Shown in pieces: positions 514 through 26,653 of a stretch of 27,189 bases of DNA. The stretch covers positions 1 through 27,189 of IMG/VR virus record IMGVR_UViG_3300010885_012806; one strand, given 5' to 3'. A program made the position numbers and the translations under genes. Below the pieces are notes generated by a model, which did not search any database, was not told the DNA's origin, and worked only from the letters and a program-made list of their open reading frames with translations. The first letter of the stretch is position 1. The number at the start of each line of letters is the position of its first letter. This stretch comes from a virus.

Positions 514-3500
514 TTAGAATGATAAACGAGTAAACTTAACAGCGTACTGTTTTCCAGCACTAATAGTATTTAGCAACAAATTATATCCGCCTGAAACAAA
601 ACTTGAAGAAAATGTTAAAGATTTTATTAGATCGTTGTTATTATTTGCAATAGTTGAATATTGTGGTGTTTCCATAACAACACGCATATCACTAGTACCG
701 AATCCAATAACCTTTACACGAACCGACATAGATACGTATATATTAGTAAAATCATTAATATATAATTCGTATATATTAGTTTGTCTTTGTAAACCTGTAT
801 TATTAGTGTCAATAATATTTATTACTGTGTTTAAATTTCCCAAAACTTGTTTTGTTATTATATCAGAATACGTATTTAATGAAGATGTATCATTAATTTG
901 AATACCTCTTGCAAATTTCATATTTCCGGATACAGAACTAATTGAAGAATTGTTATCTAATAATATATTAGATTTAAATATAATTGATCTAGATGAGGAT
1001 TGGGTTACTGTATTCCAACCAGCAGCAAACATTATATCATTTGAAACATTTGAATCTGTGTATATTTGTATCTGACTAGATTGTTTAACAAATCTAAGAT
1101 TAGAATTATCTGCACCAAAAATGTAATTTATGTTGCCAGAATTTGATTGTATATCTAAAGAATTTTGTGTGTATAATTTAGTTTTAATATTTCCAGTTAA
1201 TTCAAATACACCACTATTTGAATTAAATACAAAATTACCAATATTATTTGATAATTTATTATTTTGAATTTTTACATAACTTTCTGTGCCATAAGATTCT
1301 AAAATTAAATCAGCAAAAGAACTTAGTCCAGCAGATCTTGAAACACTTATAGTAGCATTTGATTCTGCTTTAAATTTAAAACCAAACACATTTGTTGCGC
1401 CAGTAATAAATTCAAACATATTATAATTTGAATTTTTAAATATTTTTCCGTTTATATCTAAAATTCCACCAAGTTTTGGTGCTAAATCTTTAAATATACT
1501 TATTTCACTAACAGATATGTTTATACCAGCAGTTGTATTATTAATAGTAATTCCACTAGAACCAATTAATTTTAATACACCATTTGGTATATTAAACGTA
1601 ACAGGAAATTGTGCAACAACAGCATCATTAATTACATTTGTAATATTTACCGTTGATATTGAATTAATATTAACCAACGACCGAAGATCTGTTACAGTAA
1701 GACCAACAACTTCTCCTGTAATCTTTCTTCCTAAAACAGTATTAGGATTAAGAATTAAATTCTTTGCACTAAATCCTGAAGTATTTGTAACCGCAACAGA
1801 ACTAGCAACTTTTACTGAATTTGCAGGCATCGGTGAAAGATCAAATTTAGCCGTGTAATCACCATTAGTATTAAATGATGGATATACGCTTATATTTGTA
1901 TATAATTGACTGTTAAATGAATCTGCAATTTTAATACTATCAAATATTAATTTTGTTGCTATTTTTGAACTAGATTCTGATACAGTTTGTATAGATTTTA
2001 ATCCATTACTTGCTGCTGCACCAGCACTAATTATAATATTATTATTATTGTCTTTTGTTAAAGTAACATTTGTTCCTGCAACAAACTTAATTGTCTCTAA
2101 AACATTAGTACTATTAATTGTTGTAGTAGTTCCATCAGTAATACTAATTTGTTTAAAATAATTACTAGAAGATAATCCTAATATTGCTTTAATACTAGTT
2201 GCACTAAGACCCGTAATATTACCGTCAGCAAGTCTTCCTAATAATGTATTTTCACCAACAAGCACATCACTTGGATTTTCATCAGTACTATCATTATTTG
2301 CCTTTACTGTATAGGCATCCATTGGTGCTAGATGATTATTTGTGATAGAATTTGATTTTACATTAAAGGAAATAGTTGCGTTATCTGTTGTACCGAAAGA
2401 TGGACTAATTGTTTGCGTTTCGTTGAATTCTAAAATAGAATTACTTGTAACAGAAGTATAATATGAATTATTATCTAATTTTATTTTATTAAAACCTTTT
2501 ACTAGTGGCGCAATATAATGTGCCAAATCAACACTAATTTTTATTTCATTTTGATTATTAGTAGATCCGTCTAAACCGGATATAATGATTCCATTGCCTG
2601 CTACAAAACTTAATATATCATCATTACTATTTGCTTGTATAAGTGTTGTTCCGTCTGTATTATCAGAAGAAATTTCAATATATTTAAATGTTGGTTGTAG
2701 TGGTTGAATCCATCCAGTATCTGCTATACCCAAAAGCATTCTAAGATCACTACGATTTAAACTTTTAATATTACTTGTAGTTCCGGTTTCATCTGTAATT
2801 CTACCTACAACATAACCAGCAATAGCAGATGGAACACCGTCTCCACCTGGACCAGGACCAGGAACTAATACACTATTAATGTAAAAGTTATAACTTCCGT
2901 CTATAGAAAATGCGGGAATAGATTGGAATTGTACATCGATAGGATTTCCTGATGAATCAGATGCCTTGATTGCGTATGCAGGCATTTGAGCAAGAATACT
3001 ATTGGTTACGCTATCAACAGCAGGAACAGATGTTCCTGTTGCTGTTATAACAAAACCATTATTAGTATTTGCTGTTATAGAGATACCAGTTCCTGCAAAG
3101 ATTTCTAAAGTATCGTTTGAATCAACTGAATTTATAGTGAACTCTTCATCGTCTGTTGAATTAGCAACAATTTGAACTACACCAAAACTATTTGGAATAC
3201 TTAATTCAACTTCAATTTCAGCTCCTGCTGTACTGTTAACCTCAACTCCTAATCCATTCATTCCTGTAAGTATAATATTACTATTAATACCTGTAGCAGG
3301 TACACTATTAACACGACTAAATGTGTTTTGTGTTCCAGCACCACCCGAAGCAGAAATTAAGATAGCATCATCGGTTGTGTGAGTTAGGGTAATACCTGCA
3401 CCGCCACGGAAACTTAATGTATCATTTATAGTTTCTGGAGTAAAAACAAAGTGTTCATTGATTAATGAATTTGTTACGGAAATATTATTAAATATAGCAT

Positions 3501-6500
3501 TTTGGGATAGACTAGAATTTAATAAAATTCCGGTATTATAACCAGTTCCAATAATAACTTGTTTAACGTTATTATCTGGTTTTATTGTAGTTAATGTATT
3601 TCCGTCTGTATTTGAATTTGATAAATAATATGCTATACCACCCTCAATAACCGCATATGCTAATCCACTAAAAGTAAATTCACCAATAGTTACAACATAA
3701 CATTTATTATCTGTTATTTTTTCTACTATACCTATATAATTACTATTACTTTCTGTATCACAATCAGCCTTAACTAAACGATTATAATTTAAAGCAGAAT
3801 CTCCATTATCATCAATGGTTCCATTAATTCTAACCATATCACCCATTCTAATATTAATATCAAAATCTTCAGTAACATAACGATTTGACCACCTAAAGTC
3901 TAAAATTCCATTAGAATTAGTAAAAGGAATAATTCCTTCAGTATAATTTTGATCATAACTAGTTTTTGGTTTATTACTAAACTGTGTTGATCCTGCAATA
4001 TTACCAATAAAAAACTTATCAGTAACTCTAAATTCTGCGCTTTCATCAGCAGGATTTATTCTTCCAGTAAATATTGGTTTATTAACATAATCTGATGGTG
4101 GATGGTATAATAATATTCGATCGCCATCAGTATCTAAAACATAATCACCATCAGTATTAGTTTCATATATATCGTTTTCTGTTGTAACAGGAGCATAGTC
4201 TCCATTAAAGCCAAATGATACCATATTTTCATCAGAATATAGTTGTATCTTAAAAAACTTATTAGAATCTTGTGTATCTGTTTGGATTTTAATACTAGGA
4301 TTCGTTTGTGAATTTAAAAGACCAATTCTAAATTCTGGTTGTTCTGTATTAACAAAACTCTTTCCCTTAACTCCTATATTTCCAGAAGAAATCCAAGAAT
4401 CATTATAACCAATATATTCAAACTTAACTACTTCGGATTGTGAATTTAATACTAATCCACCAAAAATGTCAATTCTTTTTGGTAATATTTCTCTTTTTTC
4501 GTTTAAATGAATATAGGGTGATGTAACAGAAAACTTAACAGTATCTAGAGTTACATTGTCAAAATTAAATTCAACAAAAGAATTTATTTCGGTATTTTTA
4601 AAAATATGGTTACCTTTAACATTAACAGGTAACATTTCTGAAGCAGAAATTCTTTTAATAGGAGTAACAAAATCATTTGAGTAATATTTTTCAAACGAAA
4701 TATAGTCATTTTCTGAAATAGTATCTGATGGTAGATTAGTAAGACTTATTCTTAAACCATTTGGTGTTGAAATAATTCCACCATTTTGTGATATATTGAT
4801 TGATGTTATTACTTCACTATCAGAAATAATTGTTGTTGTTATGTCACCATTAGATCCAGTAAGATTCGTTTGATTATTTCCATCTACCTGATCATTTGAT
4901 GTGCCTATTTGCTCGTTTGTTCTGCTTAACCATTCTGAAACTGTATCACTAGTTTTAATTGGTGTTACATATTTTCTATTTGGTCTTTCCAAATAATCAA
5001 TACGAGCAGTCCACATGGGAACTTGACCCTCTTCAGATGACAAAGTTCCGTTTACACATTCCCTGCAATCATTGTTTCCGTTTGAACAATTTGAGGCAGC
5101 AAAATAAATTCCTAATTTTGGTACAGGAGATCCGTTTGCTCCTGAATGATTAGCAATATTTAATGCATCATTTTCTGCTAAATCTTGTCCTTGAGCAATT
5201 GTTGAAAAATCTTGAAACCACGGGCCAGTATAATCGTGAAGATCATTAAATTCTGCTGCATTTGCAGCAGCAGCACCTGCATTTGATTGATCAAATGGAC
5301 CAACAAGACCAGGATTATCTAAATCTACTGTTTTTAAGTATAATTTACCCAAATCATAATCAGTAATTTGAAAATATCCAGTTTCTGATATTGGTATTTC
5401 AGTATCAACACCACTAACACGTCGTACAATAGAAAATTTTGGTTGTCTAGTACATCTACATCCCGATAGTGTAAGTTTACAGAATATATCTGCACATGTA
5501 ATATGAGCGGAATCTACACCAGCAGTTGTTACTTTTACTGCATAAGGTTTAGATGCACTTGGAGCTTCTGCAGGCATAAGAGTTATTATTTTTGTTGTAT
5601 TTTTTGGATCAAGGTTACACGGAATACTATCACTTGTTATAATTAAGTTTGCTGGTCTAGAGGCCTTTAAACAAGTAGATTTTACAATAGATGCAGAACT
5701 TGAAGAACTAGAACTAGAACTAGAGGAGTTACAAGAATTTGGTTGATATAGAGCTATTGAGTGTCTTTCACCTGCACCAATAACAGAATATTTTCCAGCC
5801 GTTGAATTCTTTTTCCAATACTTTGTTTTATTGTTGTAAATATAACTAGTATTAATATTATTATTGTAAACAGTTTCTACCCCACCACTAATATAAAATC
5901 CAGATTGTGGATAAGTACCTGCTGTTGTAGAACCACCACAACAAAAGAATGAATTGTGACCCCACGCTATTACACTTCCATCACTTCTTAATGCTACGGA
6001 ATGATTCATTCCAGCTGCTATTTTTGTATAGGTTAATCCTGCTGGTAATGTTGGAACGTTGCATTGACCTGACGTATTTAATCCCCATGCCATTACTCTG
6101 CCATCTGACAATATTCCAAGAAAATGACAAGCTCCAGCTGCTATAGAAGTATAAAATCCGTCTGTTTGGGGTTGAAATGCAACTACACGAGGGTAGTTAC
6201 CTTCATAATTTGGTTGATTGCCCCAAACTACTACTGTTCCGTTAGATCGTAACCCAATACTTCCATGCGCAGAAGCGTCTATTTGTGTAAAAGGAAGATT
6301 TTGATATGGCCCAAATTTTGGAACAACGCATTGACTATAATCGTTACGACCCCATGCTTCAATAACACCATCTTCTGTTAATGCTAAAATGTGTCCACCG
6401 CCCCATGTTGATCCTGTTGCTACTTGTACATATTTTATATTATTATTTGGAACATTAAGTTGTCCATAGTCGTTATTTCCCCAAACAGTAACTAATTGAC

Positions 6501-6939
6501 TTCCTTTTAAAATTGCCACACCATTAAACCGCCCAATATCAAAATCAATACAAGAATCTGGCTGGGTTAGTGGAATAGGAATATCTTTTCCCATAATACC
6601 GTAATCCATATCATCACCAAAACCCCACTTTTCAATAGATCCATTAGTAGTAAGACCAAAACTAAAATCTCTAGTTCCTAATACCTTTGTATAGTTAGTA
6701 CTTGGGGAATTTATAATCCAATCACCACCCGTCATTGATGTAACAGTATCAACAAGTACTTCGTGTAAACCCCAAACTTTAACCTGTATAGGACAGCCAC
6801 TACTAGAACTAGAAGATGATGAACTACTAGAATTTGACGATGAACTAGTACTGCTTGAAGAACAGAATGTATCACAAGATCGCAACCCATCAAAAGGTGG
6901 GTTTGAACTATCAGATCCTATTTTCCATTCGTCTATCAT
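514..6939 (-). CDS. Giant tail fibre/adhesin with RCC1 propeller and repetitive shaft (2141 aa)
   Basis: A putative virion fibre or receptor-binding protein. Modules in order: a Cys-flanked poly-Ser tract (residues 27-47); an RCC1-type block (about 50-400) with seven blade signatures of the form V-x-x-WGxN, several followed by GQCNVP or GQLNVP; a second poly-Ser tract (405-415); a Cys-rich segment with TCADIFC and GCRC (about 416-500). Next comes a region that looks like other phage fibre domains (about 1032-1140, GDMVRIN...IGIV...YYLS). The shaft (about 1150-1830) has two interleaved repeat families: five copies of an F-x-A-G-x-G-I-x-I motif and three MPAxxxKAxx...LGRxxxGxxxxL units. The last 130 or so residues look like a beta-rich tip. 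The start has CAGGAG upstream, 20 bases after the preceding stop. Function in host recognition is inferred from size, repeats and locus; I recognise no close named homologue. Confidence 0.8.
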   Translation of the reverse strand: MIDEWKIGSDSSNPPFDGLRSCDTFCSSSSTSSSSNSSSSSSSSSSSGCPIQVKVWGLHEVLVDTVTSMTGGDWIINSPSTNYTKVLGTRDFSFGLTTNGSIEKWGFGDDMDYGIMGKDIPIPLTQPDSCIDFDIGRFNGVAILKGSQLVTVWGNNDYGQLNVPNNNIKYVQVATGSTWGGGHILALTEDGVIEAWGRNDYSQCVVPKFGPYQNLPFTQIDASAHGSIGLRSNGTVVVWGNQPNYEGNYPRVVAFQPQTDGFYTSIAAGACHFLGILSDGRVMAWGLNTSGQCNVPTLPAGLTYTKIAAGMNHSVALRSDGSVIAWGHNSFFCCGGSTTAGTYPQSGFYISGGVETVYNNNINTSYIYNNKTKYWKKNSTAGKYSVIGAGERHSIALYQPNSCNSSSSSSSSSSSASIVKSTCLKASRPANLIITSDSIPCNLDPKNTTKIITLMPAEAPSASKPYAVKVTTAGVDSAHITCADIFCKLTLSGCRCTRQPKFSIVRRVSGVDTEIPISETGYFQITDYDLGKLYLKTVDLDNPGLVGPFDQSNAGAAAANAAEFNDLHDYTGPWFQDFSTIAQGQDLAENDALNIANHSGANGSPVPKLGIYFAASNCSNGNNDCRECVNGTLSSEEGQVPMWTARIDYLERPNRKYVTPIKTSDTVSEWLSRTNEQIGTSNDQVDGNNQTNLTGSNGDITTTIISDSEVITSINISQNGGIISTPNGLRISLTNLPSDTISENDYISFEKYYSNDFVTPIKRISASEMLPVNVKGNHIFKNTEINSFVEFNFDNVTLDTVKFSVTSPYIHLNEKREILPKRIDIFGGLVLNSQSEVVKFEYIGYNDSWISSGNIGVKGKSFVNTEQPEFRIGLLNSQTNPSIKIQTDTQDSNKFFKIQLYSDENMVSFGFNGDYAPVTTENDIYETNTDGDYVLDTDGDRILLYHPPSDYVNKPIFTGRINPADESAEFRVTDKFFIGNIAGSTQFSNKPKTSYDQNYTEGIIPFTNSNGILDFRWSNRYVTEDFDINIRMGDMVRINGTIDDNGDSALNYNRLVKADCDTESNSNYIGIVEKITDNKCYVVTIGEFTFSGLAYAVIEGGIAYYLSNSNTDGNTLTTIKPDNNVKQVIIGTGYNTGILLNSSLSQNAIFNNISVTNSLINEHFVFTPETINDTLSFRGGAGITLTHTTDDAILISASGGAGTQNTFSRVNSVPATGINSNIILTGMNGLGVEVNSTAGAEIEVELSIPNSFGVVQIVANSTDDEEFTINSVDSNDTLEIFAGTGISITANTNNGFVITATGTSVPAVDSVTNSILAQMPAYAIKASDSSGNPIDVQFQSIPAFSIDGSYNFYINSVLVPGPGPGGDGVPSAIAGYVVGRITDETGTTSNIKSLNRSDLRMLLGIADTGWIQPLQPTFKYIEISSDNTDGTTLIQANSNDDILSFVAGNGIIISGLDGSTNNQNEIKISVDLAHYIAPLVKGFNKIKLDNNSYYTSVTSNSILEFNETQTISPSFGTTDNATISFNVKSNSITNNHLAPMDAYTVKANNDSTDENPSDVLVGENTLLGRLADGNITGLSATSIKAILGLSSSNYFKQISITDGTTTTINSTNVLETIKFVAGTNVTLTKDNNNNIIISAGAAASNGLKSIQTVSESSSKIATKLIFDSIKIADSFNSQLYTNISVYPSFNTNGDYTAKFDLSPMPANSVKVASSVAVTNTSGFSAKNLILNPNTVLGRKITGEVVGLTVTDLRSLVNINSISTVNITNVINDAVVAQFPVTFNIPNGVLKLIGSSGITINNTTAGINISVSEISIFKDLAPKLGGILDINGKIFKNSNYNMFEFITGATNVFGFKFKAESNATISVSRSAGLSSFADLILESYGTESYVKIQNNKLSNNIGNFVFNSNSGVFELTGNIKTKLYTQNSLDIQSNSGNINYIFGADNSNLRFVKQSSQIQIYTDSNVSNDIMFAAGWNTVTQSSSRSIIFKSNILLDNNSSISSVSGNMKFARGIQINDTSSLNTYSDIITKQVLGNLNTVINIIDTNNTGLQRQTNIYELYINDFTNIYVSMSVRVKVIGFGTSDMRVVMETPQYSTIANNNNDLIKSLTFSSSFVSGGYNLLLNTISAGKQYAVKFTRLSF
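1510..3429 (-). repeat. Interleaved protein repeats of the fibre shaft
   Basis: Two repeat families alternate in the fibre protein. Family one (five copies, key pattern F-x-A-G-x-G-I-x-I followed by IxISA) has its conserved Gly near residues 1182, 1285, 1450, 1624 and 1796; the last three are spaced about 173 residues. Family two (three copies starting about 1318, 1539 and 1703) has the pattern MPAxAxKA, then VLGRxxxGxIxGL, then a short DLRxLLGI-like end. Similar units are common in phage tail fibres. The near-constant spacing suggests tandem duplication of a composite unit of about 170 residues. Confidence 0.7.
5695..5727 (-). repeat. Poly-Ser tract between RCC1 block and fibre body
   Basis: Residues 405-415 of the 2141-residue protein are an unbroken run of eleven serines, preceded by SCN and followed seven residues later by TC. 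Codons are mixed AGT, TCT and TCA forms rather than one triplet, giving a short-period DNA repeat. It marks the exact end of the RCC1 block and is probably a flexible linker. Confidence 0.8.
6799..6861 (-). repeat. N-terminal Cys-flanked poly-Ser tract
   Basis: Residues 27-47 are serine apart from one Thr and one Asn, flanked by CDTFC before and GCP after. Mixed serine codons are used, as in the other tracts of this locus. It separates a short N-terminal segment, likely the attachment end, from the RCC1 block. Confidence 0.8.
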
Positions 6940-6959
6940 TTATCAATACTCCTGTGTTT

Positions 6960-9900
6960 TTAAATGTCTACAATAGCAAGTGAATGTGTAGAGCCTGCTG
7001 ATATGTATTTAGCTCTTTTTCCTGAAGCAAACTGTGTAATCCAATAAGCCCCATTTATACTAGTAGTATCAATAACAGTTGGTGTTTTGGTAACATATGG
7101 AATATCTGTTCGTATTTGCATAGATGATCCAATTTGTCTAAAAGTATTATCTCCCCACCCAAATACCCATCCAGTATCTTTTTCTATAGCAAGAATATGA
7201 TTTCCACCAACAGAAACGTCTGTAAATTTAATAGGAATTCCGTCTTTATCCTTTTTAATCCAAAGTTTTTGTGCTAATTGGGTTTCACTTTCAGTAGAAG
7301 AAACATGATATCCGTTATAATTTGCTGGTATAATTGCTCCAGTCGTCGCGACAATCTTAGTTCCATTTGCATACGGCTTAGTACTTCCTAATTGTCCATA
7401 TGTGTTATTCCCCCAACAATACATATAACCTTCAACAGTTAAGGCAACTCCTATATTTGATGAAAGAAAGTTCCCCATCATAATTTTTGTAAACAAATGT
7501 TTGTTTGGATTTTCAATTCCACTAACATATCCTAGTTCAGGATAAAGGCTTCGTCTACTAAAAGCACTAGGTTCACTATCTGTTATTCCACTAAGATTTT
7601 GATATCCAGAATATTGATTTAAATTATTTTTTCTTGGCCAAATAGTATTATAAAATGTTTCACCATCTAAACCAGGATTTTGCCAACCATAGACTTGTCC
7701 TGAAGTTTTTAATCCTAAATTAAAATTTGTTCCAGAAGAAACTGTTTTCATATTTGTGTTAAATATTATAGGTAGATTTAATTTTGAGCATATTTTCGGC
7801 CACGCTGTTGGACACTGTGTACCAGTATTAGAAGTATATTCTAAAATTTTGTTATCCGAACCTATAACAGTTATCTTATCGTATGCTACAGAAACATATT
7901 TACATCCAGTAGATAATTCAGGTAATGTATAATATATAAAACCATTTGTATCTTCGTTTTGTACAATACCTGGCATTGTAACACCAGGACCCCAACACCA
8001 AACACTACCATCAGATCTTAATACTGCTGTTATATCGTATGATGATACAACTTGGATACATGATCCAGCAGAAGTCAATGATTGAGGAATTTTTTCTCCA
8101 TAATTACTATCTACAACACCAAAAACTGCTAATGAACCATTAGATTTAATAATATAGGAATCTAAATCTCCAGTAGCAACCATTAGTGGATTATTTCCAA
8201 TAGTACCTGGTATCATAGATTGACCATATTCGCGATTAGATCCAGAATTACCAGTTCCAGCACCCCACGCAATTACCTGTGTGGTTGCTGATGACGAACT
8301 TGAAGATACGGAAGAACTGCTTGAAGAACTACTAGAAGAACTGCTTGAAGAACTAGAAAAATTTGGGTTAATACATTTATAAACCATGTTTGGTAAATTA
8401 TTGTTTCCACCAATAGTATTGGTGCTATAAACAAAATTACTAGAATCAATTAGTTGTACTAAACCAACACTATAAACAATTTCTGTCCAATAATTTTTTG
8501 TAATAGAACCATTACTGTTTATATCAACAGGATCTCCAACACTACCTGTATTTTGATATACTAGTAAATGTGTTTTATTTCCATCCGAGTTAAATTCAGA
8601 AGATTCAACAATCATATCAGGATACTGTATCTCATTCCACGCAAAAACATAAAAACCACTAGCCGGTATAAGTTCGTCAACAAGTGAAATTACATTTTCA
8701 ATAAATCCATGAGAATCTAATACAATATATGAATATTCAGAAAGATTTGTTCCAGGTATACCTGCTAATTCTGCATAACCATCATTAAGATATGAATATT
8801 GTGGAATACGAATACGCACAATTTCTAAATGATTTGGTATATAAGCACAAGAAGACGATGAAGAGGGCTCATTATAGGTAAATGTTGTTGTAGCCGATCC
8901 TCCTGGCGTATTAACGTAAACTGTTTTAGCCCCTGCTGTATTTGGTAATGCCGTTCCTGTAATTTGAGAATCTGTAATAACAGGATTTTGTATAAGTTTA
9001 GTTCCAATTTTTAAATCACTAGCAAGTGTCATTAATAAACCACTGCCTGTTATTGTAATGGGTGTATTGTTTGTGGTAAGACCATTATTGGGTGTAATAT
9101 TACTAATAGTTGGAGATTGAAGATAAAGATAATTAGTGCTTACAGATCCGCCAATACTAGTAATTGTTACTAACACATTGCCATAGTATATTGATGCAGG
9201 TGCGTAGAAATGAATTTCGCCATTATTACGTGGTGTACTATAACTAGTTACTAAAACATCATCAACAGTTATAGTATCAATATTACTAGCATAATATAAA
9301 TCACTTCCAGTTACTGTAATAAGTGTTGTACCGTCTTGATGACCTTGATTTGGTGTTAATGTATTGATAAACGGAGCAGAAATATATTTAATTTGCGTGG
9401 GTGATGTGACAGATCCACCAAGAGTTGTTACAATTAAATTCTTTAATCCATCTGTTATTATTTCTGGACTTGTTCCTGTAATTTGCGAAGAAGAACTAGT
9501 TACATTAAGTAAAGAAACACCACCAATAGTTGCTGATGCTGATGTTAAATTAGATCCGTTGATAGTGATAACTGCACCACCGACTCGTGGACTAGCAGGT
9601 GTTGTACTATTTGCTACAAAATTAGAAGTATAACTAGAAATTGTTGGAGGTGTAATATATGTAAATGAAGCTGGTGACGAGTTTACACCCGATACGGTAA
9701 CTATAGTATTTTTAACGCCTGCTATTCCTGCTGGTGTTATGCATGTAATAGTAGTTGAAGTTGGAGTTCCTACAATTGTTGCAAAATTTCCATCAATTTT
9801 TACTGTTGCGCCACTAGTAAAATTGCTTCCTGTAATAATAACAGTTGTTCCTCCAGTTGTTGGTCCAGAGGTAACATTTAAGGAAATTGCACCTAATGTT

Positions 9901-11672
9901 GGAGTTGTATAGGTAAATGCACTAGATGCTGTAATACTTCCGGCTAGAGTAGTTATAGCTATATTTGAAGGACCAATTGATCCTGCTGGTGTAATTGCAG
10001 TAATTGTTGTGTTGTTTATAACACTAATGCTTTTTGCATTATTTCCTCCAACAGTAACGTTTGTTGTTCCTGTTAAATTTGTTCCTGTAATTGTAATTGA
10101 TGTACCACCCAAAGCAGTACCCGTAGATGGGGAAACATTACTATAAGTTGCTACTGCATAATAAGAAAATGATCCCGCATCGCTTTCACCGCAATTAGTT
10201 GCATATACACTATCTCGTATTATTAAATTATATGTTCCTGCAGTTTTTGATGGTGTAGTGCAAGTAATAGTTGTATTATTAACTTTATTAAAATTAGTAG
10301 CTAGTGTTCCGCCAATAAGAACTTCAGAAGCATCATTAAAATCTGTTCCTGTAATTGTAATTGAAGTTGTTACATTTTGTGCAGACGTTGCTGGGTTAAT
10401 TAAAGTGATAATTGGTTTTGCTGGAGCCTTTGGAACTGCACCCATAAATTTTTCAGTTCCAGAATTTCCAAATATTTTTAAAAATTCTGTGTTTCCGTTT
10501 ACAGTTTTTTTCCAATATTCACCTAATAGACTATCAAATACTTCTGCACTTCCATTTGATGAGGATAGTGTATTATTTGAATCATATTGTTCGCTATACA
10601 CACCACATTGTCCACTGTTGTTTCTGCCACGCACAATTACAGTATTATCATTAAATAATATTGCAGTAAAGTCAGTACCACAAACAATATTTTGTATTGT
10701 GTTGGTACTTTGTGTTACCCAATAAGCATTAGTAAGACTATTTGTGGTTGTACTAGACCCACCAACACGAGTAAACCCACATTGACCGTATCTGTTATCA
10801 CCCCAGCCCCAAATACTGTTATCTGATCTAACTGCTACACAAAAAAATCTACCGGCTGCAATTAAACTACAAGCACCAATAGAACTAGGTACATTTAAAG
10901 TTCCGTAGTCAACTCCACTTACATTTCCCCAAACCTTTACAGCAAATCCTGATGTTAAACCTATAGTATGATATCCGCCAAATGCAATATTATTAAATGC
11001 AATATTTAATGGTGCATTTAGAGTGTTTTCTGATTTTCCCCATAATTTTATATAATTAGTAGTAGGAAGAATAACAGCAGATACATATGCTCCAGTAATA
11101 ATTTTATTTGCTGTTCCAATATTTTTTTTCCAATAATTACCTAATAGACTATTATTACAAGGATCACTTGCTGCACAACCACTACAAGTAGAGGTAAATG
11201 CTGCTCCTGTTTTACTAAATTGTTCGGGTTTATCACCACACTGCCTCCACCCAGTTGCACCACAATTACCAATAATAAAATTTTGACCCCACGCATAAAT
11301 AAGACCATTTTCATCAATAGCAGTAGAAAAACCTACTCCACACCCAATTTGTTTAAAATTAGCAACAGATCCACCATTAAATGTTTTTTTCCAATAATTA
11401 CCCGATAGACTATTAACAGCAACACTACCAGACGAGACAGTATGATTAGATTCATATTGTTCTTCTATTATACCACACTGTCCGTGTGTGTTATCTCCCC
11501 AACTAATAATACTTCCATAACCGTAAGTAGTATTATAATCAACTAAAGCTATAATATGATCAGATGATATTTTAATATCATAAAATGTATAACCAGATGG
11601 AATATTTAATAAACCAAATGAATCTCCAGTTTGTATAGATCCCCATAAATTTAATTTATTACACGAAGACAT
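6960..11672 (-). CDS. Giant modular adhesin: RCC1 - 6x IPT/TIG - lamin-tail-like - poly-Ser - RCC1 (1570 aa)
   Basis: A putative phage surface or fibre protein. Modules in order: an RCC1-type propeller (1-412) with seven blade signatures such as ISWGDNTHGQCG and IWGWGDNRYGQCG; six tandem IPT/TIG immunoglobulin-like domains (about 418-505, 507-588, 590-673, 675-763, 766-850, 853-934), each with P-x-x-G-x-x-x-G-G-T-x-x-x-I-x-G-x-x-L-like starts; a short Ser stretch (937-941); a lamin-tail-like domain (about 942-1103) with AELAGIPGTNL, LIPASGFYVFA and THLLVYQNTG; a poly-Ser tract (1106-1128); and a second seven-signature RCC1 block (1130-1570). The start overlaps the preceding stop as TAATG, with CAGGAT upstream. 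RCC1 and IPT domains usually mediate binding, so cell-surface binding is a reasonable inference. No catalytic motif is visible. Whether it is a fibre, whisker or decoration protein cannot be told. Confidence 0.8.
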   Translation of the reverse strand: MSSCNKLNLWGSIQTGDSFGLLNIPSGYTFYDIKISSDHIIALVDYNTTYGYGSIISWGDNTHGQCGIIEEQYESNHTVSSGSVAVNSLSGNYWKKTFNGGSVANFKQIGCGVGFSTAIDENGLIYAWGQNFIIGNCGATGWRQCGDKPEQFSKTGAAFTSTCSGCAASDPCNNSLLGNYWKKNIGTANKIITGAYVSAVILPTTNYIKLWGKSENTLNAPLNIAFNNIAFGGYHTIGLTSGFAVKVWGNVSGVDYGTLNVPSSIGACSLIAAGRFFCVAVRSDNSIWGWGDNRYGQCGFTRVGGSSTTTNSLTNAYWVTQSTNTIQNIVCGTDFTAILFNDNTVIVRGRNNSGQCGVYSEQYDSNNTLSSSNGSAEVFDSLLGEYWKKTVNGNTEFLKIFGNSGTEKFMGAVPKAPAKPIITLINPATSAQNVTTSITITGTDFNDASEVLIGGTLATNFNKVNNTTITCTTPSKTAGTYNLIIRDSVYATNCGESDAGSFSYYAVATYSNVSPSTGTALGGTSITITGTNLTGTTNVTVGGNNAKSISVINNTTITAITPAGSIGPSNIAITTLAGSITASSAFTYTTPTLGAISLNVTSGPTTGGTTVIITGSNFTSGATVKIDGNFATIVGTPTSTTITCITPAGIAGVKNTIVTVSGVNSSPASFTYITPPTISSYTSNFVANSTTPASPRVGGAVITINGSNLTSASATIGGVSLLNVTSSSSQITGTSPEIITDGLKNLIVTTLGGSVTSPTQIKYISAPFINTLTPNQGHQDGTTLITVTGSDLYYASNIDTITVDDVLVTSYSTPRNNGEIHFYAPASIYYGNVLVTITSIGGSVSTNYLYLQSPTISNITPNNGLTTNNTPITITGSGLLMTLASDLKIGTKLIQNPVITDSQITGTALPNTAGAKTVYVNTPGGSATTTFTYNEPSSSSSCAYIPNHLEIVRIRIPQYSYLNDGYAELAGIPGTNLSEYSYIVLDSHGFIENVISLVDELIPASGFYVFAWNEIQYPDMIVESSEFNSDGNKTHLLVYQNTGSVGDPVDINSNGSITKNYWTEIVYSVGLVQLIDSSNFVYSTNTIGGNNNLPNMVYKCINPNFSSSSSSSSSSSSSSSSVSSSSSSATTQVIAWGAGTGNSGSNREYGQSMIPGTIGNNPLMVATGDLDSYIIKSNGSLAVFGVVDSNYGEKIPQSLTSAGSCIQVVSSYDITAVLRSDGSVWCWGPGVTMPGIVQNEDTNGFIYYTLPELSTGCKYVSVAYDKITVIGSDNKILEYTSNTGTQCPTAWPKICSKLNLPIIFNTNMKTVSSGTNFNLGLKTSGQVYGWQNPGLDGETFYNTIWPRKNNLNQYSGYQNLSGITDSEPSAFSRRSLYPELGYVSGIENPNKHLFTKIMMGNFLSSNIGVALTVEGYMYCWGNNTYGQLGSTKPYANGTKIVATTGAIIPANYNGYHVSSTESETQLAQKLWIKKDKDGIPIKFTDVSVGGNHILAIEKDTGWVFGWGDNTFRQIGSSMQIRTDIPYVTKTPTVIDTTSINGAYWITQFASGKRAKYISAGSTHSLAIVDI
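8289..8357 (-). repeat. Poly-Ser tract with 12-base tandem DNA repeat
   Basis: Residues 1106-1128 are serine except one Val. On the minus strand the DNA shows a period-12 repeat (AGTTCTTCAAGC, AGTTCTTCTAGT, AGTTCTTCAAGC). Length variation by slippage between related phages would be in frame whenever it changes by a multiple of three. The tract joins the lamin-tail-like domain to the C-terminal RCC1 block. Confidence 0.8.
8871..10421 (-). repeat. Array of six IPT/TIG domains
   Basis: Six tandem units of about 82-89 residues each. Recurring elements are P-x-I/L-x-x-I/V-x-P, then GGT-x-I-x-I-x-G-x-x-L/F, a central xIGG or VGG strand, and a late TITxxTP element with AGxxNxxVTTxxG. Repeats 2 and 3 are the most canonical; repeat 5 is the most divergent. 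IPT/TIG arrays form rigid rods in bacterial adhesins and phage tail proteins. Confidence 0.8.
10505..11412 (-). repeat. Dispersed DNA repeat encoding DSLxGxYWKK in the N-terminal RCC1 block
   Basis: The plus-strand pattern TTTTTTTCCAATAATTACC followed by YGATAGACTA-like sequence appears at 11384-11412 and 11122-11150, with a diverged copy at 10505-10532. On the coding strand these give SLxGxYWKK insertions within RCC1 blades. Copies one and three also share the flanking EQYxSNxTxSS segment, so a stretch of about 40 residues was duplicated within the gene. Confidence 0.65.
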
Positions 11673-11899
11673 TATCTATTATCCTGTTTTGAAATGATAC
11701 TTAATATATTTTTTATTTCGTTCATGGTTTTATCAATAGTATTTAGTTTATTTTCTAACTCGTTATATTTGTTATTTAAAGAATTTAAAGTTTTAGAAAC
11801 ATTCAATTTATCGTAATTGCAGTTTAACAGTGCTTGAGTTTTTGGATCTCGTTTAAGATTAGAGTTTCCGTAAACAGGTATTAAATTATTTATCTTCAT
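11672..11899 (-). CDS. Small coiled-coil structural-region protein (75 aa)
   Basis: This short protein has a polar N-terminus with YGNSNLKRDPKTQALLNCNY, then a probable coiled coil (about 33-70) with Leu/Ile at heptad-like spacing (LNSLNNKYNELENKLNTIDK). The pattern of nLxRDxxTxALxNxxxxxxx followed by a coiled coil resembles small hypothetical proteins I associate with the structural region of marine T4-like phages, where the segment often reads LVRDxxSGAIxNxD. It overlaps the upstream large gene by ATGA and the downstream giant gene by TAATG, so it is translated as part of the same unit. A role in fibre attachment or trimerisation is possible but unproven. Confidence 0.65.
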   Translation of the reverse strand: MKINNLIPVYGNSNLKRDPKTQALLNCNYDKLNVSKTLNSLNNKYNELENKLNTIDKTMNEIKNILSIISKQDNR

Positions 11900-14800
11900 G
11901 AAATTGCTATTCCTATAAAATCATTAATTTTTGGAACAACCGCACCATTATTACTAAATAAGCATATTTTAAATGCAAATTTATCAAAAGAACCTATGTC
12001 TTCGGGTAGAGTAAATTCCATTTCGTTAAACTCTCCATTTTTTGAGTTAAATGGTAGACCATTATAAACCATTTCTCTGTAGGGCAATTCATTAAAATTA
12101 CCATGAGATCCAACTGCTTCTGTTCTAGCAAAAACAGCCACTGCAGTTCCTGCTGGTTTATTTATAGTTAAAATTACTTTGCAATTTACAGCATCAAAAC
12201 CATCAGCAAGAGTTACCATTTTACTTATATATCTTGAAGTTGCTGGTCTTTTTAATAGTAATGTACTAGGTTTAACAACAGCCTTTGGTAATTTCTCGTT
12301 CTTTATAATTTCTGATGTAATAGTGCCATTTACATCAACTTCGTTTGTGTCAATAAGATTTCTTACTAATATTATTCCAGATTTTTGTATATCAATTACA
12401 GGACTAACATACGGATTGTATATTACAGATTCAAAAGAAATTTTTATTGTATTTGAATTAGTTAATGATGTTTGAGTTTTATCCAAAATCATACTTTTAT
12501 TTAATATAATATCAGTATCAAAAGTTACATTTGAGTAAGATAAAGAACTATTTGAACTAATTAATTCTAAATTTGTTATTGTTGCTGTATCTTTTACATC
12601 CATTATATAATTTTTAAAATTTATTAATTCATAGGTTAATTCATTTTCATTTTGTTCAAACATTCCAAATGATTCAGCGTAACCAGTTTCTTGTGGTGGT
12701 TGAGTATTAATAATAAAATTAATAGATGCAGTTTTTGGTGTAGTTAAAGATGCACCTTCCATAAAAGTACAAAGATTTGCACTAAACATTAAATCTGTTG
12801 TTCCATCTGCTGACCACGTGGAAGCGTTTGATGAACGGAAAAATTCTCCAACATACGGTTGTGATATAATTTTTCTATTTGTTGTAGAAGAACCAATATA
12901 AATTGGAGACGGAACGCTTATATCATCTTCACCTATAGTAGCAGCATATACGGAATATTTTGTGCTATCTGAATGCAACACAATACAATGTTCACCAGCT
13001 TCAAGATATACTGGAGGATCAAAAGTAAAACGTGTATATCTTTGATTGTTTTTAATATCAGGTAATACGGCAATTTCCGTTTCAGATAAAGCTATAACTT
13101 TACTAGCAGGAACAATAGAAACACCATGCGAATGTACATTTTTACTATCAGGATAACCGTTAACAGTTGGTCTTAATTCTGCCATAACTGGTTGTGTTGC
13201 GTCTTTAGTTGAAAAACAAAAATCAAAACTAGAAATATAAACACCAGAAGGATAAAGATCTTTATTTATAGTAAATGTTTGTGCAATTGGATCTATTGTT
13301 TTTATAACAATATCTCTCTGTTCGTTTGTCAACTGTACAGTTTTAGTTTGAAATTTTCTTCCTTCTGCAATAGTTTCTTGTTTTGTAAGAGTTAAACCAC
13401 TAGCAGAAAACACACCAGAAGCATACATTGTTGTTTTTATACTAAATTTATCATTTGTAGAACTATCTGTAATATTAAATGTACGATCTCCTGTTCTATA
13501 AGAACCTTCTTTTATTGTGAATTTTATAATAACATTTCCCAAACTATTTGTTTTTGGTATATAATTTAATGTTTTAAATGGAGTTCCTAAAGTATTTTGT
13601 TCTGTGACAACAGAACACAATTCATCAACATTTACATCATCTAAAAACACATATAATTTTGTATTTGGTTTTAAACCCGTGACATAAAGATATAAATCTT
13701 GTGCACGAATATAGTGTGCTATAGAGACATCAGTAACTCTTTCTCCTAAACTAACATTTTCGTGTTGAATATCTAAACTAGTTTTACTAACGTCTCTTGT
13801 TTGAACATCATGAACTTGTGTTTGTCTTCCACCGTGTGCAGATGTGTTTTTAGTATATTCTTCAACAGTAGTCCATTCTCCGTATTTAGTTCCCCATACT
13901 CCCTGATTACTATTAATAAGTGTATTTGTTATATTATTTAATACCTCATCAAACCCCTTTAATAGATCAACACGCAAATCTGGAAGTTGTTTAATGTCAA
14001 TCCAATCATCTACGGCAGGATCAATTGTAACATGACCTAATGATTTTATACCGTCCAATGGAACCAACGAAACTGCACTACTAGCCGCTGGCTGAACAAT
14101 AAAAGGTTTATTGCGAGTTGTAGTATTAAGCATATATAAACCAGTATTAAGTTTTTCTCTAAATCCAGTTTCCATAATTTTTCTAATATCAATAGATTCT
14201 TCACCAGTAGTATAGGTGTCATACTTAACTTCCGAAAAATCATTAGAATTATTAAATTTAAATCCAAATCTAGATGTCATAAATGAATGTCTTAATAAAT
14301 TTTCTCTTATATCAATACAACCATTATAATCTCTATCTGAAGTATCTGATATTAAATATGTTTCATAATTATCAACAATTATTCCATTTTTAGATCTATC
14401 CAATCCATTAGAATCTGTAACTATAAGATCTGCTGCTTTTTTTTCTACTATTGATAATTGTGTGTAATATTCAACGTTTTTAATTCGTTTTTCTAATTTA
14501 CCAATATCTCTCATAGTATAACGTTTATTTTCAATTGCATTAGTTTTAATATCAGAAACATCTAAAGTATATCCTGGAATAAAAATATCATACAATTTCA
14601 TTGCATCAGGTATTTCTTTTGTTGGTATTGATGGATTAATACCAGGAATACCTTCTTCTATTTTAAACACGCCGTCTTTAGTTAAATATAAAGAATCTCT
14701 TCTTGATAGGTAATGTGTTCCTGTAACAATAAAAGAATCTGATGGTAATAATGAAAAAGATACTTCAATTTTAGTTGAATCATCATAAGGATTTTCATTG

Positions 14801-17800
14801 CTTCCAATTGTTTTTCCTGATTTAATACTATATATTGGTCTAAAATCAATTATTGCGCTTTTATGTAATTTTTTATTATTTTTCCCAACAACAGAATAAC
14901 CAATTTCCTCATTTGGAATTTGTGATTTTGTGCCATAACGATAAGAATTTTTAACAACAGGACCAATAATCCCATCTGATTTTCTGTGTTCAAAATAGGA
15001 ATAAATGATTGTAATCTCTGTAAGGCCTTCTGTTATTTTTTGGTTTAAATTATCAGTAGACGTATTAACAGAACTTATACCAAGAACAGAACACATTTCT
15101 TTAGTATAATCATAATTAAAAGATATTTTTGAAAAACCGTATATATCTTTTCTTTCACCAGTATCTAATATAAAATATTTTGTTACGTCACTAATAATGT
15201 TATTAGCATTAGTATAAAGTATCTGATCTATTTTATAAACATCAGATTTTGTTAAATAGAAATATATATTGGTATCATATGTTTCACCTAAAGATGCTGT
15301 AGCAGCAGATCCAGGAATATGTTTTAAAGTTCTTGTTTCGCTATTTATTTCTAGATCTTTTATTCTATAGTTAGAAATATCTATTGCATAATCTGCTGAA
15401 AAAATAAAATTATCAGATGCTCCCGATGGTTTTATAATAGTCACAACTGGAGGATTACTAGAAGTTTTTGTAACATATTCATTTCCAAAAGTTTCTCTAT
15501 TTATATCAGTTCCTGTTTTATAGATTAATTCATATCCTGATTGTATTCTTGCGCCGCCAGTTTGATCTGTTGATAGTTGAACCGATCCACCACCATTCCA
15601 CGAGCCAGATATAGTTTTTCTTACTAACAATTGTCCAGGTTCAATATTAGAAAATATAAAACCACCTTCTAATTCATAAATAAAACCATTTTTAATTAAA
15701 TTATTAAGATAAATGCTACCATATGCATCGCATGAAGTAATATTTTCGTATTGATTTAGTCTAAAAAGAATACTAGTATCATAATATGATGTAATTTTTG
15801 TATTTTTATCAAAAATAACATCATTAGCATTTAATCTTTCAATTATTAATGCTTGTTTAGTTGTGTTAATAGTAGGAGAAGTTAATATAGAATCTATTAC
15901 TAAAGCCTTTGCTCCACTATCATGAATAATAACATCACCTTTATTAAAAATATGAAGACTATTTGTTAAAATTAATTTATTATATTTTGTTGATTCTGGT
16001 ATAACTTGAAATAAATTATTATTTTGATATGAAAAACTATAGCAATTTTTTAATATAGTATCCATTGTATAATTTCCAACAGGATTAATGTCAGAAAGAT
16101 ATATTTTAAATTTATCATCACCCATATGGTTAACTTTAGTAATCAGACACGTACCAATTTTTGGACTAGCGTCAGGAAGATATACTACACCACTACTAAA
16201 AAATTGTGAAGAAGTTTTAGTTAGTTGTTCTGATTCAATATTATATTTTATTTGACTTGTATTAACATAAAATAATGATTTATTTCCAATAGCAACTACG
16301 CGATTAATAAGATATGGAAAATTATCTGGTGTATAACCTTCTGGATTTCCTATTTTTAATAATGCCGTATCTGTACCTATTGAATTTGTAATGTTTAATT
16401 TTGTATTATTTAATGATTTAAATGTCAATACTGTTGGTTGATTTAAACTTTGACCAAAAGTTTTTGCTTTACTAAAATTTATAACTTCAAAAGTTGCTCC
16501 AGGATCGGAATTAAGAGGAGATGTTAAATTTTTATTATACTGTGTAATAATATCACCAATATTATAATTAACAGAATCACTCCAACTAGAAGATTCTGTT
16601 ATATTTTGTATTGCTGTATTTCCAACAGTATAGTCTTTTCCAGTTAATTCATATGGAGAAGAAATATTTGCAAAAAATCCAGAAGAAAGATTTATATTAC
16701 TAGTATTTTGATCTATTGCACTTCCACCTAAACCATCTCCGCAACCACTATCACCAAAATAATATATTTTTCCAAATTCTTTTTGAAATTTAACAGTAGT
16801 AATTGCAACAAGAGTTTTTAAAGATTTATCCCACGCTAATGTTTCTCCACTTATTTTTGAAAGATATTCAGAACCATCTACAATACTTGAAGACATATAA
16901 CTATATTGAACAAGATCTTCACTACCTCCTGTTAAAACAGGAACATAATTTATTCCAGTAGAACAAACAGAATCATTAAAAACAATTTCTTGAATATGTA
17001 TTGTTGAATTTGCATCAGCATTTACCCATAAAACATTATCTATAGCAAATCTTCCACATGGGTTTGTTAATAGTCCACCTTCTAGACTCTCTTCTATATA
17101 CCAATATCTTTTCCCCGCCCATTCTGTAACATAATTTGGACCACCACTAGTATTTGTATAATCTGCTTTTAATAAATTATTACTTAAAGATACTATATAA
17201 GATTCAGATACAGAACCATCAGAATTAGATGTAGCTGATATTGTTGCTAGAATTTTTCCAGTTGCTATAACCTGGTTTTGTTCTAAATTATCATTACTAC
17301 CATTTCTTATAATAATATTTTTTAATAAATTACCGTAATCATAATGATATGGTGGAGTGGATGGGCCAGTAAAATACGATTTATCAGTTTTATAAGTAAC
17401 TGTAATTTTCATTACATTAAAAAGGTCTGTAATATGATCTATGCTACTTCCAAAAGAAAATGTTTGACTAAATGGAACAGTTATTTTTGCATTTTTATCT
17501 TTATGATTAGAAAAAATAACATTATTGTCGTAATCAAAAAAACCATCTAATGATTTGATAAATATAGTTTGTTTATTATCTGAAGGAACGTATCTTAATA
17601 ATAGACCAGTAAAAACTACTTTTCCTGTAACATCGGCTTGTTTAACGATATATGGCGCAGTTGTAAGTTCATAATTATCAACAAATCCATTAGAAGAATA
17701 AGGATCATATGCACTTCTTGCATTATTATAATAATTTTCATTTGAAACAATTTTAATAACATTTGATACACTTGTTGATAATTTTCTAAACTCATAAGAA

Positions 17801-17871
17801 ACATCTGTTCCTATTTCTTCAATTTTATTAAAAGGAGAACCTAAATTTGAATTAAAATTTGTTGCAGTCAT
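11896..17871 (-). CDS. Large virion structural protein, DUF4815-superfamily C-terminal features (1991 aa)
   Basis: Probably a peripheral baseplate or fibre-connecting protein. Several signatures match the large DUF4815-type proteins of cyanophages: IDFRPIYS near residue 1005; an LTKDGVFKIEEGIPGINP segment and RYTMRDIGKLEKRIKNVEYY (about 1115-1135); SIAHYIRAQDLYLYVTGLKP followed by FLDD (about 1380-1410); DPIAQTFTINKDLYPSGVYI with ELRPTVNGYP (about 1523-1575); and ADGFDAVNC near 1890. The first 900 or so residues are beta-rich and I do not recognise them. The start has ACAGGA upstream and a near-consensus late promoter (GATAAATA, 17878-17885), 25 bases after the preceding stop. The preceding gene carries the N-terminal DUF4815 part, so the two may form one complex. 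Confidence 0.75.
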   Translation of the reverse strand: MTATNFNSNLGSPFNKIEEIGTDVSYEFRKLSTSVSNVIKIVSNENYYNNARSAYDPYSSNGFVDNYELTTAPYIVKQADVTGKVVFTGLLLRYVPSDNKQTIFIKSLDGFFDYDNNVIFSNHKDKNAKITVPFSQTFSFGSSIDHITDLFNVMKITVTYKTDKSYFTGPSTPPYHYDYGNLLKNIIIRNGSNDNLEQNQVIATGKILATISATSNSDGSVSESYIVSLSNNLLKADYTNTSGGPNYVTEWAGKRYWYIEESLEGGLLTNPCGRFAIDNVLWVNADANSTIHIQEIVFNDSVCSTGINYVPVLTGGSEDLVQYSYMSSSIVDGSEYLSKISGETLAWDKSLKTLVAITTVKFQKEFGKIYYFGDSGCGDGLGGSAIDQNTSNINLSSGFFANISSPYELTGKDYTVGNTAIQNITESSSWSDSVNYNIGDIITQYNKNLTSPLNSDPGATFEVINFSKAKTFGQSLNQPTVLTFKSLNNTKLNITNSIGTDTALLKIGNPEGYTPDNFPYLINRVVAIGNKSLFYVNTSQIKYNIESEQLTKTSSQFFSSGVVYLPDASPKIGTCLITKVNHMGDDKFKIYLSDINPVGNYTMDTILKNCYSFSYQNNNLFQVIPESTKYNKLILTNSLHIFNKGDVIIHDSGAKALVIDSILTSPTINTTKQALIIERLNANDVIFDKNTKITSYYDTSILFRLNQYENITSCDAYGSIYLNNLIKNGFIYELEGGFIFSNIEPGQLLVRKTISGSWNGGGSVQLSTDQTGGARIQSGYELIYKTGTDINRETFGNEYVTKTSSNPPVVTIIKPSGASDNFIFSADYAIDISNYRIKDLEINSETRTLKHIPGSAATASLGETYDTNIYFYLTKSDVYKIDQILYTNANNIISDVTKYFILDTGERKDIYGFSKISFNYDYTKEMCSVLGISSVNTSTDNLNQKITEGLTEITIIYSYFEHRKSDGIIGPVVKNSYRYGTKSQIPNEEIGYSVVGKNNKKLHKSAIIDFRPIYSIKSGKTIGSNENPYDDSTKIEVSFSLLPSDSFIVTGTHYLSRRDSLYLTKDGVFKIEEGIPGINPSIPTKEIPDAMKLYDIFIPGYTLDVSDIKTNAIENKRYTMRDIGKLEKRIKNVEYYTQLSIVEKKAADLIVTDSNGLDRSKNGIIVDNYETYLISDTSDRDYNGCIDIRENLLRHSFMTSRFGFKFNNSNDFSEVKYDTYTTGEESIDIRKIMETGFREKLNTGLYMLNTTTRNKPFIVQPAASSAVSLVPLDGIKSLGHVTIDPAVDDWIDIKQLPDLRVDLLKGFDEVLNNITNTLINSNQGVWGTKYGEWTTVEEYTKNTSAHGGRQTQVHDVQTRDVSKTSLDIQHENVSLGERVTDVSIAHYIRAQDLYLYVTGLKPNTKLYVFLDDVNVDELCSVVTEQNTLGTPFKTLNYIPKTNSLGNVIIKFTIKEGSYRTGDRTFNITDSSTNDKFSIKTTMYASGVFSASGLTLTKQETIAEGRKFQTKTVQLTNEQRDIVIKTIDPIAQTFTINKDLYPSGVYISSFDFCFSTKDATQPVMAELRPTVNGYPDSKNVHSHGVSIVPASKVIALSETEIAVLPDIKNNQRYTRFTFDPPVYLEAGEHCIVLHSDSTKYSVYAATIGEDDISVPSPIYIGSSTTNRKIISQPYVGEFFRSSNASTWSADGTTDLMFSANLCTFMEGASLTTPKTASINFIINTQPPQETGYAESFGMFEQNENELTYELINFKNYIMDVKDTATITNLELISSNSSLSYSNVTFDTDIILNKSMILDKTQTSLTNSNTIKISFESVIYNPYVSPVIDIQKSGIILVRNLIDTNEVDVNGTITSEIIKNEKLPKAVVKPSTLLLKRPATSRYISKMVTLADGFDAVNCKVILTINKPAGTAVAVFARTEAVGSHGNFNELPYREMVYNGLPFNSKNGEFNEMEFTLPEDIGSFDKFAFKICLFSNNGAVVPKINDFIGIAIS

Positions 17872-17877
17872 TTAATG

Positions 17878-17885
17878 TATTTATC
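17878..17885 (-). promoter_or_regulatory. Possible late promoter, one mismatch, before the 1991-residue gene
   Basis: The minus strand reads GATAAATA, one base from the T4 late consensus, 6 bases before the ATG at 17871. That is closer to the start than the exact boxes elsewhere, which would leave almost no leader. It could instead simply be AT-rich spacer following the ACAGGA ribosome site. Confidence 0.2.
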
Positions 17886-17896
17886 CTGTTTTAATA

Positions 17897-25331: not shown

Positions 25332-25720
25332 CTAGTTTTTTCTACCTTTAGTGTTAATACTTGTTGGTTATCCGGTTGATCTGTTACAGAGAAGACTATC
25401 ACTATAACTAATTGTTTATCTTTATCGTCAAATTTCACACTAATATCAGAAGGTAAAATGCGTGGTTCATATTTTAAAAGAATTTTTTTTATATCTTTTT
25501 CAATTTCTTTTCCAAAAATTGGATAAAAATTTTCAAAAAGATAGGAAGTTAAACCAGCATCTAGATCATAATTAAAGGCTTTTTCGTATTTTTGCAAAAA
25601 CAAAATAGTTTTCATACTCTGTTTAATAGCATCTACACCAGTTTTAACAGAAACATCCCCTGTAAAGGGATTAGCCATGAAGTTTAGATCAAGATCTGTG
25701 GTGTTTAAAACTTGTTTCAT
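25328..25720 (-). CDS. 25: Baseplate wedge protein gp25 (130 aa)
   Basis: gp25 clamps the baseplate wedge to the sheath ring and is homologous to TssE of type VI secretion. Key features: DLDLNFMANPFTGDVSVKTG (9-28), matching the family's DxDLxFxxNPxTGDxxxK start; AIKQSMKTILFLQKYEKAFN (31-50), matching the VKQSxxNLxxTxxxERPF helix; and LTSYLFENFYP (57-67). The family's usual E-R-P-F reads E-K-A-F here, so the conserved Arg-Pro is lost. Length fits T4 gp25 (132). The start overlaps the upstream membrane-protein gene as ATGA and the stop overlaps gp6 as ATGA. Confidence 0.92.
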   Translation of the reverse strand: MKQVLNTTDLDLNFMANPFTGDVSVKTGVDAIKQSMKTILFLQKYEKAFNYDLDAGLTSYLFENFYPIFGKEIEKDIKKILLKYEPRILPSDISVKFDDKDKQLVIVIVFSVTDQPDNQQVLTLKVEKTR

Positions 25721-26386: not shown

Positions 26387-26653
26387 TTAGCCAATGAACA
26401 CATTTCCTGACCCCGTTGTTTTATGACCACATTGTGCTTTATCGCCTTTTCTGACTATTCCTAAACCACCTGAGAAAACAGTACTCGAACATTCCATCAT
26501 TTTTGCCCTAGAATGTATACCTTTCCCGTGTGGTTTTACTTTAGTTCCTAAAACAGCAACTTCATTATTATTAACAAGAACATTATTGGTGTATGTTTGT
26601 AATAATAACCCTTCAGCCTTGTCTTGTAAACACCTAGCCGCTCCAGATGCCAT
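26387..26653 (-). CDS. 5.4: PAAR-repeat spike-tip protein (T4 gp5.4-like, 88 aa)
   Basis: PAAR proteins form the sharp, metal-binding cone on the tip of the central spike in phages and type VI secretion. Visible features: GAARCLQDKAEG at the N-terminus (4-15), matching the PAARxxD start; the central PHGKGIHS (41-48); and TVFSGGLGIVRKGDKAQCGH (58-77) followed by GSGNVFIG (81-88), the typical C-terminal strand set and NVFxG ending. Candidate metal ligands are Cys75, His77, His42, His47 and Cys8. Length is close to T4 gp5.4 (97). The start overlaps the stop of the upstream gp5-like gene as TAATG. T4 also places 5.4 after gene 5, so partner identity is well supported. Confidence 0.9.
   Translation of the reverse strand: MASGAARCLQDKAEGLLLQTYTNNVLVNNNEVAVLGTKVKPHGKGIHSRAKMMECSSTVFSGGLGIVRKGDKAQCGHKTTGSGNVFIG

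Follow-up and report, generated by a model that had tools for sequence, protein, structure and literature searches.

Beta-propellers occur in known or putative receptor-binding proteins of phages, among them the phi11 receptor-binding protein, PRD1 P2 and phiKZ gp131C, the last of which is seven-bladed and lies at the baseplate periphery (PMC4901313). Proteins of the RCC1 family have been detected by mass spectrometry in virions of Vequintavirinae W70 (PMC11370258) and of GAP32 (PMC5259590), and phAPEC6 encodes eleven RCC1-like proteins, for which a role in ordering DNA was guessed (PMC7247149). RCC1 proteins are common in phages, where their usual label is 'regulator of chromosome condensation' and their PHROGs category is 'DNA, RNA and nucleotide metabolism'. 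Our literature search, which covered open papers, found no description of an RCC1-TIG-RCC1 protein in a fibre slot.

The locus described here lies in a contig of an uncultured T4-like virus, IMG/VR record IMGVR_UViG_3300010885_012806, of which we analysed a stretch of 27,189 nucleotides (the window). Its sequence gives good support to three complete seven-bladed RCC1-type propellers in two adjacent genes of the fibre slot, P0001 and P0002 (Table 1).

Propellers, rod and fibre in P0001 and P0002

Curated profiles clearly recognise RCC1 repeats in both proteins. P0001 matches WD40_RLD (1.9e-54, 3 stretches) and RCC1_2 (2e-42, 9 stretches, 142 bits), and P0002 matches RCC1_2 (1.5e-26, 91.9 bits) and WD40_RLD (1.1e-30, 107.6 bits), the last falling under its curated cut-off of 150. 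RCC1_2 is far over its cut-off of 22 bits in both, and the Pfam RCC1 profile, with a cut-off of 21.7 bits, scores 49 bits in P0001 and 24.6 bits in P0002. An independent blade profile, built from RCC1 proteins of other phages only, recovers nine matches in P0001 (4.5e-29) and five in P0002 (1.7e-20); seven and four matches, respectively, reach at least 5 bits, and each of 600 shuffles gave at most one. RCC1-type propellers are also among the best matches of both proteins in PDB searches, with BLIP-II the best sequence match of P0002 residues 157-353 (5.2e-18). When the blocks were aligned profile to profile with 20 viral propellers, two to four blades of each block matched at probabilities of 96-99%; since these matches cover part of each block, they confirm the family and not the blade number. 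The original prediction of three RCC1-type propellers in two adjacent genes, at both ends of the 1570-residue protein and near the N-terminus of the 2141-residue one, holds in substance; Pfam, the blade profile and the PDB searches all confirm the family.

The number of blades had been derived from seven V/I-x-x-W-G signatures per block. Counted strictly, that figure holds for P0002 (seven) and fails for the two P0001 blocks (five in the N-terminal and three in the C-terminal one). No strict signature lies outside the three blocks anywhere in either protein, and shuffled proteins contain a mean of 0.2-0.4 and a maximum of 3. Read by sequence, each block has six whole core blades, and its seventh blade is split between a WG strand at the N-terminal end and half a blade at the C-terminal end: LNLWG (7) with FLKIFG (397) in the P0001 N-terminal block, QVIAWG (1132) with KYISAGSTHS (1555) in the P0001 C-terminal block, and QVKVWG (52) with YSVIGAGERHS (384) in P0002. 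One core blade of the P0001 C-terminal propeller (~1250-1280, CKYVSVAYDKITVIGSDNKILEYTSN) was assigned by eye, without a profile match. The same half-blade, six-blade, half-blade pattern is seen in clear phage RCC1 proteins of S-SRM01, and blade counts of complete RCC1 ORFs in viral contigs, made with a profile that included the window's own blades, have a sharp maximum at 7 and include a few of 21 and 28. Seven blades in each of the three blocks, as predicted, therefore draw their support from degenerate signatures together with the split blade, not from the strict count. The P0002 block, with its seven strict signatures and its BLIP-II match, is the strongest sequence case.

Structure modelling was favourable for one of the two P0001 propellers. 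In the AlphaFold model of residues 1135-1570, whose input was an alignment of the three window propellers only and began beyond most of the closing strand, the strand groups fit seven blades at modest confidence (pTM 0.65, mean pLDDT 53), and Foldseek matched this model to UVR8 and RCC1 over its whole length (best E 6.8e-16, TM 0.5-0.6). The N-terminal propeller, modelled from a three-row alignment, reached a pLDDT of 34.5 and gave no usable propeller model. A loop motif, S-L-x-G-x-Y-W-K-K and variants of it, recurs between the blades at window positions 10437-11672 and 6963-8282, and is absent from every other ORF compared.

Table 1. Features of the fibre slot and its flanks. Positions are those of the window; residues are those of the named protein.
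Feature	Position	Strand	Description or basis
P0010	138..494	-	Conserved small ORF, downstream slot edge; homologues at the equivalent place in L015, L027 and L020/L021
P0002	514-6939	-	ORF, 2141 aa; extent as originally predicted
P0002 long-fibre body, 658-2141	517..4968	-	Homologue of the complete fibre, itself without propeller, in related viruses
P0002 orphan cysteine-containing domain, ~416-657	4969..5694	-	9 Cys in 413-657 vs none in two fibre-body segments counted
P0002 second poly-serine linker, ~404-415	5695..5730	-	Translation; AGAACT tandem repeat at 5704-5724
P0002 RCC1-like propeller, 52-397	5749..6786	-	Pfam; BLIP-II match; seven strict WG signatures
P0002 poly-serine linker, ~25-48	6796..6867	-	Translation
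P0001	6960-11672	-	ORF, 1570 aa; extent as originally predicted
P0001 C-terminal RCC1-like propeller, 1131-1570, to stop codon	6963..8282	-	Pfam WD40_RLD best stretch 1132-1568; AlphaFold; Foldseek
P0001 poly-serine linker, ~1106-1129	8286..8357	-	Translation; tandem repeats at 8299-8358
P0001 domain without family, ~935-1105	8358..8870	-	Lies between TIG domains and serine linker
P0001 six IPT/TIG (Ig-like) domains, ~417-934	8871..10424	-	Pfam TIG 3.8e-53, 6 stretches; exact ends by eye
P0001 N-terminal RCC1-like propeller, 1-412	10437..11672	-	Pfam; independent blade profile; sequence landmarks
P0011	11672..11899	-	Small virion-structural-type ORF, upstream slot edge; phrog_473; homologues in L015 and L027
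P0003	11896..17871	-	DUF4815/VrlC-like tail protein, upstream of slot; phrog_358 and phrog_877, DUF4815

Six TIG domains and a serine linker, overlooked in the original prediction, join the two propellers of P0001. The six-TIG stretch matches plexin and MET in the PDB and is probably a rod between the propellers. For the domain that follows it, Pfam gave no match on 8292-8720 even at E 5, and no relatives of the TIG segment or of residues 986-1115 were present among the ORFs of the contigs compared. A lamin-tail-like reading of residues 935-1105 was dropped, as Pfam gave it no support. P0001 as a whole has no phage match, and outside its propellers it shows no known fibre or attachment homology, no recognised attachment domain and no trimerisation shaft. 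No relatives of whole P0001, whole P0002 or the C-terminus of P0003 emerged from searches by peptide pattern.

P0002 begins with a short N-terminus, followed by poly-serine, the propeller, a second poly-serine stretch, an orphan domain of ~240 residues (no Pfam match at E 5 and no relative among the ORFs compared) and, from residue 658, the fibre body. Residues 658-2007 align with the fibre of the related contig L015 (33% identity, E 2e-178), which has the same flanking genes; we infer that the L015-type protein is a fibre from its length, repeats and locus, as it has no Pfam match. The N-terminal end of many fibres faces the baseplate. The P0002 propeller comes before the part that aligns with the start of the relative's fibre; it is possibly baseplate-proximal and need not form a 'head' at the distal tip.

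The fibre slot in this virus and its relatives

P0001 and P0002 occupy a slot whose upstream side is formed by T4-like baseplate-wedge genes and DUF4815/VrlC-like tail genes. P0003 matches adsorption-associated tail proteins by tblastn, and P0011 overlaps the start of P0001 at 11672. The DUF4815-type tail protein (window 11896-20017) is split over P0004, which holds the N-terminal part of the profile, and P0003, which holds the C-terminal part; the same two-ORF split is found in related contigs, and contig G010 has a single ORF of 2480 aa. P0009 (window 25717-26352, 211 aa, phrog_14038) is conserved in position across many related contigs and may have an N-terminal membrane segment. At the window edge (26387-27186), adjoining the wedge genes, P0013 is a PAAR-motif protein (phrog_281); the P0012 ORF beside it has no PHROGs match and probably belongs to a larger tail-tip protein in contig L008.

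In related viruses the slot is free of propellers. Two near-identical related contigs (gp6 46% identical) carry a small P0011-like ORF followed directly by one RCC1-free fibre of 1467 residues, and the order in L027 is identical, its fibre ORF being ~1400 residues long; in both L015 and L027 a P0010 homologue comes next after the fibre. The slot is empty in L020/L021, where nothing separates a small ORF at the P0011 position from the P0010 homologue. Among 80 loci that have a P0003 homologue, a set that includes duplicates of one virus and in which 41 loci extend at least 5 kb downstream, no RCC1 ORF occurs in the DNA covered, so this group of viruses can do without the module. A PF13540 search of nine relatives gave no match, but its controls gave none either. 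The original prediction had called for a comparison with other T4-like marine phages; in the related viruses compared here, the three-propeller architecture is not shared. Because the relatives' slot holds either one propeller-free fibre, corresponding to P0002 from residue 658, or nothing, ~6.7 kb (4969-11672), comprising P0001 and the first 657 codons of P0002, is extra in this virus. Among direct repeats between 500 and 12000, examined as a DGR check within the 27-kb record only, the 20 largest families include no long near-identical repeat.

A possible adhesin module and its alternatives

The position and domain content of these genes make a host-binding role for the propellers plausible, all the more so because unrelated phages, too, repeatedly have RCC1 where fibre or baseplate genes lie. 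An RCC1 DNA pattern matched at least 120 viral stretches, with an RCC1 ORF in 119 of those listed, and RCC1 genes were found in 47 records of named phages. Tail fibres precede or adjoin them in S-SRM01, BUCT-ZZ01, PBES 02 and LIBA6276; in SP-15 and LIS04 the RCC1 gene adjoins a pectate-lyase-type protein downstream of baseplate genes. PollyC and SeaP4 have RCC1 at a tail-fibre locus, with the propeller C-terminal to a weak T7-fibre-like N-domain (~6e-5, just under the cut-off). With RCC1 genes in so many phage records, and RCC1 proteins in virions (PMC11370258, PMC5259590), the suggestion that these modules may be a distinct class of host-binding head was too strong.

Further RCC1 loci were noted. 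In a 157-kb T4-like contig (L235+L236, IMGVR_UViG_3300042453_002354, 107661-113279, minus strand), a 1873-aa homologue of the baseplate-wedge protein P0006 has ~17-18 RCC1 blade matches, about three propellers, in its C-terminal two thirds. A laminin-G-type and RCC1 protein of 1243 aa (L188, 1544-5272, minus strand) adjoins homologues of gp25 and gp6. In L231, L233 and the Ppr_SeaP1-4 records, the RCC1 matches of four phages isolated on one Pseudomonas strain differ in extent and score at the same locus, which hints at a variable RCC1 part among close relatives.

We favour, with some reserve, the reading that P0001 and P0002 form a fibre-slot adhesin module. The two proteins would fill the variable slot downstream of the baseplate-wedge genes, P0001 as a dumbbell of propeller, six-TIG rod, domain without family, flexible serine linker and second propeller, and P0002 as the relatives' long fibre, extended at its N-terminus by a propeller and an orphan domain. 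Loops on the rigid seven-bladed rings would probably bind glycan or protein ligands on host or environmental surfaces, and the propellers would add attachment points beside the fibre. The analysis establishes the fold family, the blade number at sequence level, the place in the slot and the lack of propellers in the slot of related viruses; from these we infer the presence of P0001 and P0002 in the virion, their copy number there and their binding of ligands.

It is possible, though on balance unlikely, that the propellers are structural or decorative instead, acting as spacers, as docking parts between fibre and baseplate, or as whisker-like surfaces with no part in receptor recognition. The N-terminal place of the P0002 propeller, ahead of the conserved fibre body, would fit such a role, and poly-serine linkers and TIG rods are likewise well suited as spacers. 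However, the content of the slot varies among relatives from nothing to one fibre to the present module, as expected for host-range parts, and the propeller of PollyC and SeaP4 lies C-terminal to its T7-fibre-like N-domain.

A DNA role like that of eukaryotic RCC1, in which the propellers would order or condense the packaged genome, is very improbable. It has been proposed for the eleven proteins of phAPEC6 (PMC7247149), and it agrees with the family name and the PHROGs category, but the propellers here share their proteins with a long fibre and with TIG domains, and their genes lie in a fibre slot after baseplate genes. Many propellers of the RCC1 type, moreover, have functions unconnected with DNA; the PDB sequence nearest to P0002 is that of the beta-lactamase inhibitor BLIP-II. 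That same match could be taken to mean that these proteins are BLIP-II-like inhibitors of host factors, secreted or intracellular and unrelated to adsorption. We give this equally little credence: a shared superfamily does not imply a shared ligand, fusion to a fibre body of 1484 residues would be odd for an inhibitor, and inspection of the translations revealed no secretion signal. Least probable of all is that mis-assembly joined the RCC1 region to the contig, since the raised GC at 5001-11000 (0.33-0.38 vs ~0.28) and junctions covered by no second contig are set against a P0011/P0001 overlap of the kind that neighbouring genes have here, a single open frame in P0002 from the propeller through the conserved fibre, and a GC rise that falls mainly on codon positions 1 and 2 with GC3 close to the backbone. 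For the same GC3 reason, raised GC was ruled out as proof of recent import.

Beyond the adhesin reading of this locus, one may tentatively ask, with somewhat more doubt than belief, whether RCC1 propellers are a general modular adhesin head of phages that has been acquired many times, by fibre slots, by T7-type fibres and by wedge proteins of the baseplate. The present virus would then be an extreme form, a dumbbell beside a propeller-capped long fibre, with several heads that bind surfaces simultaneously. The fusions to a fibre and to Ig-like rods seen here, and that to a baseplate-wedge protein in another contig, point to a role on the outside of the virion instead of one in ordering DNA. 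If this is true, dozens of misannotated phage genes would be candidate host-recognition parts, approachable in culturable phages.

Relation to known systems

The best PDB matches, BLIP-II, UVR8 and eukaryotic RCC1, are seven-bladed RCC1-type propellers like those described here, but they are cellular or secreted, have unrelated ligands and lack any fibre or TIG context. Nor does the context of the present genes give reason to expect the Ran- or nucleosome-binding activity of eukaryotic RCC1. Among phage propellers, those of the phi11 receptor-binding protein and PRD1 P2 are five-bladed, and none of the phi11, PRD1 and phiKZ propellers is called RCC1 in PMC4901313. The jumbo coliphages phAPEC6 and GAP32, together with W70, resemble this virus in having RCC1-type proteins, detected in the virion for W70 and GAP32, but these are described as separate proteins, in up to eleven copies in phAPEC6 (PMC7247149).

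Contig IMGVR_UViG_3300042453_002354 has about three propellers tied to the baseplate within a T4-like structural cluster; its propellers, however, are C-terminal on the P0006-type wedge protein, outside the fibre slot. PollyC and Ppr_SeaP4, T7-like phages of Pseudomonas, share an RCC1 domain in a protein of the tail-fibre locus, but have one propeller region, C-terminal to the weak T7-fibre N-domain match, and a podovirus-type tail. S-SRM01 and BUCT-ZZ01, freshwater cyanophages of the Kyanoviridae, combine a T4-like background with RCC1 propellers of the half-blade, six-blade, half-blade pattern: S-SRM01 has three RCC1 genes downstream of the long tail fibre distal subunit, and in BUCT-ZZ01 the neighbours of RCC1 are a tail fibre and a VrlC-like gene. 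Unlike P0001 and P0002, these are separate genes with one propeller (345-405 aa) or about two (700 aa) and no fusion to TIG domains or fibre. What is new in the present virus is the arrangement; the RCC1 propeller itself is a known, poorly understood and probably misannotated part.
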